Position numbers and translations under genes: made by a program
The notes under the pieces: model-generated
The model's input: the letters and a program-made list of their open reading frames with translations, nothing else
Database searches by the model: none
What the model was told of the DNA's origin: nothing
Shown: positions 11,974 to 59,534 of the stretch, piece by piece
Layout of the letters: each line of letters opens with the position of its first letter
Position numbering within the stretch: the stretch's first letter is position 1
Source of the DNA: Halorubrum halophilum
Lineage (GTDB): Archaea; Halobacteriota; Halobacteria; Halobacteriales; Haloferacaceae
Length of the DNA stretch: 64,000 nt
NCBI RefSeq assembly: GCF_000739595.1
Contig: NZ_BBJP01000081.1
Coordinates: 62,001-126,000, forward strand
Direction: 5' to 3'

Positions 11974-12046
11974 GGGCGCGTGGCCTAGCGGACAGGGCGA
12001 GAGGTTCCTAACCTCTCGATCGCGGGTTCGAATCCCGTCGCGCCCG
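11974..12046 (+). tRNA. tRNA-Arg (anticodon CCT)
   Basis: The cloverleaf is readable. The acceptor is GGGCGCG paired with CGCGCCC, with discriminator G at 12046. The anticodon stem AGAGG/CCTCT holds loop TTCCTAA, so the anticodon is CCT and decodes AGG. The T arm is GCGGG-TTCGAAT-CCCGT. No intron and no encoded CCA. Confidence 0.95.
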
Positions 12047-12109
12047 CTCCTCACTTCGTTCGTCACGGGCGCGACTGGCTCCACGCTCGCTCACTCCGTT
12101 CGCTCGCGT

Positions 12110-12130
12110 GGATCCCGCCACGCCCGCTCT
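12110..12130 (+). repeat. degenerate copy of the tRNA-Arg 3' end
   Basis: GGATCCCGCCACGCCCGCTC matches the tRNA 3' end and its following bases (from 12030) at about 18 of 22 positions, in the same orientation and 64 nt downstream of the gene. It could be an old attachment-site scar or chance similarity in GC-rich sequence. Confidence 0.3.
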
Positions 12131-40965: not shown

Positions 40966-41264
40966 GGTGGCGACTGCAAGATGATCGAAGCGGTACGGCT
41001 GATGAGATCCAACTCCTTCTCAGCATTTTCCGAGTGAATCGAGGAAAATCGCCGGCCGGGACCCTCGCGAGCGAACAGCGTGAGCGAGCGAGGGTACGGC
41101 CGGCGCACGACCGTAGGGAGTGCGCCGGCCGGGATTTGAACCGGAATCAGACGTGCTCGCTCACGCTGTTCGCTGCGCGCGACTGATAGGGTTCAAACCC
41201 TCGGCGCATCTTCCCGCACGACTCACTCGTCGCTGTCGCTCCTCGTTCGTAGTGTGCGGGAAGA
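40966..41264. other. intergenic region with copies of the tRNA-Gly 3' end
   Basis: No protein gene. Two inverted copies of an AGCGAACAGCGTGAGCGAG segment lie at 41069-41087 and about 41157-41176. Partial tRNA sequences lie at 41121-41142 (same orientation as the tRNA) and about 41191-41220 (opposite orientation). The segment looks like a layered integration scar next to the tRNA gene. Confidence 0.55.
41121..41142 (-). repeat. 22-nt exact copy of the tRNA-Gly 3' end
   Basis: The 22 bases (starting TGCGCCGGCCGGGATTTG) repeat the first 22 bases of the tRNA-Gly gene region 41265-41286, in the same orientation and 122 nt away. They cover the T-arm and acceptor strand that integrases use as attachment sites. 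No integrase lies between the copies. Confidence 0.65.
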
Positions 41265-41335
41265 TGCGCCGGCCGGGATTTGAACCCGGGCCATGAGCTT
41301 GGAAGGCTCAGGTCCTACCACTAGACCACCGGCGC
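41265..41335 (-). tRNA. tRNA-Gly (anticodon TCC)
   Basis: Read on the minus strand, the acceptor GCGCCGG pairs with CCGGCGC and the discriminator is A. The anticodon stem TGAGC/GCTCA holds loop CTTCCAA, so the anticodon is TCC (decodes GGA). The T-loop is TTCAAAT. No intron and no encoded CCA. Confidence 0.95.
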
Positions 41336-59318: not shown

Positions 59319-59459
59319 ACCTGTGCGGACGGCGGCGCGACGGAAATCGCTTCCGGGTTCGGGATCGAAGGGTGACGACGCGACTTTGAGGCGAGAAACA
59401 GAGCTGAACGAAAAGGGAGAAAAGAACGCGAAACTCTGCGTGTCGCGTTCGTCCAGAAG

Positions 59460-59534
59460 TAGCGGGAAGTAGATTTGAACTACCGATCTCCGGGTTATGA
59501 GCCCGGCGGAATCTCCTGGCTATCCCATCCCGCT
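59460..59534 (-). tRNA. initiator tRNA-Met (anticodon CAT)
   Basis: Read on the minus strand, the acceptor AGCGGGA pairs with TCCCGCT and the discriminator is A. The anticodon loop CTCATAA gives CAT. Three G:C pairs at the end of the anticodon stem (GGG/CCC) and an A1:U72 first pair mark it as the initiator rather than elongator species. The tRNA is convergent with no protein gene, and 141 nt from the aIF2-beta gene. Confidence 0.93.

Follow-up and report, generated by a model that had tools for sequence, protein, structure and literature searches.

The segment at positions 41121-41264 of the window, the whole 64,000-nt stretch of Halorubrum halophilum DNA analysed here, is one member of a defined repeat family rather than a single scar. 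The units of this family share one plan. A spacer hairpin is followed by an inverted copy of the tRNA T-arm (I), then by a covarying imperfect hairpin, and finally by a direct copy of the tRNA 3' end (D), which spans from the T-loop to the 3' end. With its spacer a unit measures about 120-130 nt, and units can succeed one another head to tail. The comparisons below demonstrate the family itself, its location and orientation, the matching of its copies to the cognate tRNA, the covariation of its hairpin, and the precise presence and absence of its units. What kind of element is this? Our preferred reading, to which we give a probability of about 0.45, is that the segment is a tRNA-anchored, mostly non-coding hairpin cassette exchanged by recombination at the tRNA T-arm, through a mechanism that is putative.

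The locus behind tRNA-Gly(TCC)

The tRNA-Gly(TCC) gene occupies 41265-41335 on the minus strand, and its 3' end serves as the anchor copy (D0), which runs from the T-arm to the discriminator base. Along the tRNA strand the order is the tRNA, a 60-nt spacer, I, a 46-nt hairpin region, the 22-nt D, and a 71-nt palindromic module, alpha. The first unit behind the tRNA is called the beta unit, and all its parts are given on the minus strand. Its spacer hairpin (41205-41264) adjoins the tRNA 3' end and closes with an inverted copy of the last tRNA bases; the perfect 18-nt arms in the spacer (41202-41219 and 41254-41271) include the last 7 nt of the tRNA. I, the inverted degenerate T-arm copy, lies at 41189-41201 and reads AGGGTTTGAACCC on the minus strand, the conserved inner hairpin of the TATCAGTCGCGCGCAGCGA...GAGCGAGCACGTCTGATTCC family lies at 41143-41188, and D, the exact 22-nt copy of the tRNA-Gly 3' end that closes the unit, lies at 41121-41142. 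The DNA fold of the 144-nt stretch 41121-41264 has a z value of -4.5, and none of 200 shuffles was equally stable.

The original prediction had described an exact 22-nt copy of the tRNA 3' end in the same orientation, 122 nt away, and this is borne out: the 22-mer TGCGCCGGCCGGGATTTGAACC stands at 41265-41286 and again at 41121-41142. The exact pair is far beyond chance. When up to three mismatches are allowed, these two positions are still the only matches in the 64-kb window, while shuffles expect 0.01. A degenerate copy in the opposite orientation had also been proposed; it is found at 41189-41200, with 12-nt arms (92%), and adjoins the perfect 18-nt inverted pair. The further inverted pair, described as 19 nt long and as flanking the copies, is real and perfect at 20 nt (41070-41089 and 41155-41174, 100% complementary), but it does not flank them, for its arms are loop sequence in two different hairpins.

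Beyond D, the alpha module (41050-41120, minus strand) consists of a 13-nt spacer, an inverted tRNA end, a GC-rich loop and a tRNA-end copy without the T-loop (GGGTCCCGGCCGGCG); a module of this type stands directly 3' of tRNA-Gly(TCC) in eight relatives. It is followed at 40990-41049, on the same strand, by a hairpin and what appears, from comparison with the Halorubrum genome G012, to be the decayed start of a further beta unit. Elsewhere in the window, inspection by eye gave a palindromic alpha-type module at 12048-12128 on the plus strand, directly behind tRNA-Arg(CCT) (11974-12047) and ending in a 3' end copy of that tRNA without the T-loop, while no such module was seen in the 450 nt behind tRNA-Met(CAT) (59459-59534).

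Distribution, cognate matching and folding of the units

Is the segment peculiar to this locus? A search of the own genome (G000) with the window stretch found the inner part at six further places, in all of which the terminal copy equals the 3' end of the tRNA standing upstream, exactly or nearly. At four of them a predicted tRNA (Asp, Val, Gly(GCC) and Arg(TCT)) lies just upstream. The other two, on contigs C77 and C98, are preceded by a partial tRNA end only; the complete tRNAs, Ala(CGC) and Leu(TAG), stand about 5 and 15 kb further upstream, and a tyrosine recombinase match separates them from the units. When a 19-nt stretch of the inner part that holds no tRNA sequence was used as a probe, it matched 71 contigs, all Halobacteria by title. 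On these contigs 71 of 74 unit positions have a same-strand tRNA 46-435 nt upstream; of the three exceptions, two are close to the locus edge (within about 200 nt) and the third follows a partial tRNA.

A model of sequence and structure (R1) was built from 52 units. It holds T-arm positions and so favours units with T-arm copies, while a whole tRNA upstream and its identity are not built in. The window sequence is among its 52 rows, so that the match at 41122-41204 (minus strand, 99.6 bits) is there by construction. R1 has matches in 134 of 146 sampled genomes of the order, or 119 of the 122 good ones. A single genome has up to 29 of them when strict filters are applied and up to 37 when none are; G079, G163 and G031 are the good genomes of the order that lack an R1 match. 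In a sample of the phylum (196 genomes), 24 genomes outside the order gave one weak match each (E 2.7e-4 to 9.5e-4).

Six genomes (G000, G106, G162, G044, G094 and G099) were surveyed with this model. They gave 93 + 95 matches, from which 82 + 91 full-length ones (173) were kept and 11 + 4 partial ones excluded. A same-strand tRNA lies 27-626 nt upstream of 160 of the 173, at 115 loci and 36 kinds of tRNA. Most loci hold one unit (79 of 115), and the remaining 36 hold two (30 loci), three (4), four (1) or five (1). Seven of the other 13 matches, on C77 and C98 of G000, at 2.62-2.63 Mb of G162 C1 and at 2.23 Mb of G044 C1, lie behind a partial tRNA end and have a fitting same-strand tRNA 4.7-15 kb upstream, with a PF00589 match between, two of these PF00589 matches being weak (25 and 28 bits). 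Inserted elements have likely parted the tRNA from the array at these loci. The last six comprise one match that is a tRNA on the other strand and one that is the other strand of a place already counted with its tRNA (both in G099), and four without explanation. A CRISPR-like reading of the arrays was dropped, as their inner parts recur and are not unique spacers.

Such a regular position behind tRNA genes could also mean that the hairpin functions as RNA within the tRNA 3' trailer, in processing, termination or regulation, and varies in copy number. All 71 probe-found units with a tRNA are downstream of it and in sense orientation, and the family is present in most sampled genomes, as such an element might be. 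Its loci, however, cover only part of the tRNA genes counted with the Rfam model (10 against 52 in G000, 21 against 41 in G106 and 25 against 41 in G162), and tRNA is the sole Rfam family type in the window at the gathering threshold. We consider this explanation quite unlikely.

The arms of the units are fitted to the tRNA they follow. Scored against its own tRNA, D reaches on average 20.2 of 24, against 11.2 for the other tRNAs of the genome (n = 160). D fits its own tRNA above the mean non-cognate one in 158 of 160 units and above every other one in 136, and I fits its own above the mean of the others in 146 of 160. When tRNA labels were shuffled within genomes, for the first 77 units, the observed sum was reached in 0 of 1000 shuffles for D and I alike. 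On these 77 units the count of those with the cognate strictly best depends on the alignment, being 53 with a crude register and 65 with a gapped one. A poor fit (D score below 14) is found in 12 of 160 units. At the 36 loci with several units, the first D scores at least 18 in 36 of 36, and the last D in 28 of 36.

Several variants of this pattern were noticed. Some D copies, at different tRNAs (L204, L207, L217, L267, L103 and L094), continue past the T-loop with a CCGANNGRCG-type sequence, which could be the outer half-site of an array. Several D copies (TTCACAATCC, TTCATAATCC, TTCAACATCC, TTCGACATTC; loci L046, L176, L205, L208, L223, L224 and L227) have an additional base midway along the T-loop, and this base would be extrahelical in the folded unit. 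At one locus (L168, G000:C23:14331-14417) an inner hairpin of the GGAAG type stands without T-arm copies, and the 900 nt upstream hold no tRNA.

Does the inner hairpin itself evolve under a constraint of folding? The covariation template fits 70 of the 160 units, identical units being counted once. Two pairs of the middle stem are Watson-Crick in 83% (L8-R6) and 84% (L9-R5) of them, in the forms C-G, G-C, A-T or T-A, compared with 40% and 37% after shuffling, and none of 1000 shuffles equalled them; such shuffles leave the relatedness among units in place. In 50 of 70 units a T.T position, mostly unpaired, is conserved, and the adjoining C-G pair in 70 of 70. Among the 490 cells of the inner stem, non-pairs comprise 10 G.T and 12 A.C, a small sample in which there is no excess of wobble of the RNA type. 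The outer stem is unusable for this test because D is fixed by the tRNA, and a count of single mismatches (33 G.T and 26 A.C, identical units again entering once) was set aside, spoiled by the conserved motif and the related units.

A conserved covarying hairpin would suit an RNA of the tRNA trailer, but a sense strand with no excess of G.T over A.C, in this small sample, speaks against it. The same numbers are what DNA palindromes predict. The units might then be selfish or neutral palindromic repeats, growing and shrinking in number as the tRNA-end copies undergo ordinary homologous recombination, slippage during replication and template switching, with gene conversion at each locus keeping both the hairpins and the cognate matching. 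The alternation of direct and inverted copies, the occurrence of identical tandem units, the near-perfect inverted arms and the lack of a linked enzyme would all agree with such an origin. It does not account so well for the T.T position and its neighbouring C-G pair, which are kept, nor for the same inner families standing at many tRNAs and across families of the order, where local conversion would not carry them. We regard it as a possible but rather unlikely explanation.

Variation of the site and larger insertions

The tRNA-Gly(TCC) site was compared among 23 genomes of Halorubrum, the own genome included. The same segment does not stand in all of them, and variable elements do occur at the site. 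A unit closed by D lies directly behind the tRNA in six (G000, G008, G019, G004, G016 and G003) and behind an alpha module in three (G014, G002 and G007). In G015, G006 and G010 a unit lies behind a partial tRNA or at the far end of an inserted element, the inner hairpin of G006 being different. In eight genomes (G017, G005, G018, G001, G013, G020, G022 and G012) the tRNA leads straight into an alpha module, which is the state expected on removal of the beta unit with one D: the 122-nt segment and one 22-nt copy are precisely absent in several species. G012 and G022 among them have a decayed beta unit without D further downstream, and G011, G021 and G009 have other DNA behind the tRNA. Alpha and beta modules thus differ in their order among Halorubrum genomes. 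A doxX tree was drawn for the 16 genomes whose fetched stretch held a doxX match of sufficient length. On it, having a unit closed by D requires six changes, of which well supported branches demand at least five, against a mean of 5.4 after shuffling; presence of the unit is not clustered on the tree. Such flips between close relatives are a further point against a functional trailer RNA. In G007 and G008 (L014 and L021) the 13-nt spacer between direct and inverted tRNA-end copies is flipped relative to other species.

Larger segments bounded by copies of the tRNA end are found at the same tRNA in four relatives, with sizes of 1.2 kb (G021), 2.8 kb (G003), 8 kb (G015) and 12 kb (G011), and with bounding repeats of 40, 42, 49 and 43 nt, respectively, all longer than D. 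In the segment of G015 a gene that resembles an integrase is split over two frames; the naming is by eye and by a weak match of 18 bits to the archaeal XerA model, far below the cut-off. Then could the small copies be what such elements left behind? The original prediction had read the locus as a scar, the remnants of repeated insertion and loss of integrase-bearing elements. Part of this reading stands: the site varies among relatives, large segments have entered it, and PF00589 matches lie between tRNA and array at four other loci. The tRNA-Gly(TCC) site is a hot spot, as had been held, and the small units are a separate thing of their own. The large elements use longer repeats, the 200-250 nt before attR in G015 and G011 hold no hairpin unit inside the element, and the array of G015 lies beyond attR. 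Moreover, leftovers of random insertion and loss should not look alike at different tRNAs, so the words scar and remnants are not supported by one standard anatomy at the 115 tRNA loci of six genomes, with a covarying hairpin and tRNA-fitted copies. Viral contigs gave no match to an exact 25-mer or to a degenerate one, and none of 14 matches to a third pattern, a 16-mer, has the right-hand motif within 200 nt. The origin of the units as scars is mostly refuted, and we hold it very improbable.

One segment between tRNA-end copies carries genes. In G010 a stretch of about 1.15 kb between two D copies contains a MarR-like HTH gene (Pfam MarR_2, E 2.7e-7) along with a gene for a 116-aa PemK/MazF-like protein, a weak match just under the Pfam cut-off (E 2e-4). 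The remnant of an inverted T-arm, followed by a short hairpin and by D, closes the segment. The same MarR-like/PemK-like pair is found in G003, followed by other sequence with further ORFs, and the same start of the segment in G014, interrupted by an element with a TnpB-like gene named by eye. In our Halorubrum loci the gene pair between tRNA-end copies lies at 610-1352 of L047 and 3023-3765 of L046, and the segment start followed by the TnpB-like gene at 1990-2080 of L019. Of 148 genomes of the family, 100 match the PemK-like, toxin-like member of the pair, and so do 62 plasmid records. At 25 of 29 other loci of the PemK-like gene the fetched 3.3 kb have no T-arm motif, and the remaining four have one T-arm motif each or a tRNA in reach. 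This one gene-bearing segment may be a chance capture.

Are the units carried by a mobile element, or served by a linked enzyme? By DNA similarity 22 phage records matched, and among the 20 listed all matched the tRNA part and none the unit. The one plasmid match, on a Natronorubrum bangense plasmid, is by eye a tRNA-Val with its own unit, and no free-standing carrier of units was found among the plasmid matches. No recombinase was linked to the arrays in the loci and genomes examined, and inspection by eye of the window's ORFs between 34 and 48 kb, from a length of 80 aa upwards, showed no integron integrase. A Xer-like tyrosine recombinase recurs in 12 of 13 loci picked for a Xer-like protein, from eleven genomes (G000, G030, G031, G035, G044, G079, G094, G099 twice, G106, G162 and G163). 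Its open frames measure about 340-430 aa. It has 111 bits to the archaeal XerA model (cut-off 220) and 20 bits to TIGR02249 (cut-off 265), and the good genomes that lack R1 matches, three in number, have it too. Numbers of PF00589 matches do not track the arrays: G162 has 2 with 25 array loci, while G031, G079 and G163 have 7, 8 and 4 with no R1 match.

A putative mechanism and known systems

How might the cassettes move? On the preferred reading, that of a hairpin cassette exchanged at the T-arm, units would enter, leave and permute through recombination between the T-arm cores (GTTCRAA...) of the D copies and the tRNA. The enzyme would most likely be a tyrosine recombinase, with D as a simple site and the folded I-hairpin-D as a structured one, in the manner of integron attI and attC. 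Because the same 3' end comes with every unit, the tRNA would not be disrupted. The arrays may help the cell, perhaps as extra attachment sites that protect the tRNA, or may serve only themselves. Against this reading stand the lack of a linked recombinase, the 12 poorly fitting D copies, the mostly absent T-arm motif at other loci of the PemK-like gene and the fact that all but a few units are non-coding.

Recombination at the T-loop explains the precise gain and loss of units. A T-loop crossover between tRNAs would swap the acceptor end, so one inner sequence across cognate-armed tRNAs is not simply explained, and maintenance of the cognate arms is the main puzzle of the mechanism. Identical tandem units, as at tRNA-Arg(CCT) in G106, need only unequal homologous recombination, which accounts for tandem copies but leaves the same inner hairpins at many cognate-armed tRNAs unexplained. 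A bolder version would make the family a distributed integron-like system, in which tRNAs serve as anchors, crossovers fall in the T-arm, and a host recombinase reading the folded hairpin captures, loses and reorders dozens of cassettes per genome and occasionally takes up genes, a toxin-antitoxin pair for instance. Haloarchaea would then have a tRNA-based counterpart of integrons that arose independently, or a decoy layer keeping integrases off the tRNA. This we offer as speculation, and think it unlikely.

What does the family mean for haloarchaeal genomes? It stands behind about half of the tRNA genes in two genomes of a single contig (G106 and G162). The 3' ends of tRNAs are standard integrase targets, and the family bears on why they are integration hot spots, on the origin of tRNA-end copies that can be mistaken for scars, and on folded-DNA recombination evolving outside integrons. 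Among the papers listed by searches of the open-access literature none describes the hairpin family, and older or subscription papers may do so.

Some known repeats resemble the units in part. REP and BIME elements, which go with Y1 transposases, are short palindromes with many copies per genome, as the units are, but they are not known to be confined to tRNAs or fitted to the flanking gene. Haloarchaea also have the small mobile repeats SMR-A and PATEs, which the Haloquadratum paper (PMC3119063) describes as about 110 bp long, with inverted repeats, no transposase of their own and an unexplained mobilisation, much like our units. The targets of SMR-A are palindromes of IS605-type elements, entered without a target copy, whereas the units lie behind tRNAs (160 of 173) and end in the tRNA 3' end. 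Integrative elements of archaea that target tRNAs also share features with the units: as a review (PMC8371274) describes them, they lie between direct repeats of the tRNA 3' end and have precise empty sites in relatives. The units differ in having no integrase or cargo, since the 122 nt between the copies is too short for one, and in having an inverted copy and forming arrays at about 120 nt each, while the inserted segments at tRNA-Gly(TCC) have 1-12 kb and repeats of 40-49 nt.

The units also resemble integrons. In attC, too, two inverted cores fold into a site whose inner hairpin is imperfect and leaves bases unpaired. The consensus of the attC core is GTTRRRY. The core of the hairpin units is GTTCRAA, usually GTTCAAA or GTTCGAA, with C as fourth base, and does not agree with it. 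Like attC cassette arrays and CALINs (Ghaly et al. 2022, PMC9668308), the units are arranged head to tail, an anchor being followed by spacer and folded site, with variable order and one gene-bearing segment. Unlike integrons, they have a tRNA as anchor, are units of about 120 nt and not gene cassettes, and form many separate arrays per genome, each fitted to its tRNA; no integron integrase was seen among the ORFs read around the array of the window. No membership among integrons is claimed; the likeness that we suggest is to the topology of attI plus attC.
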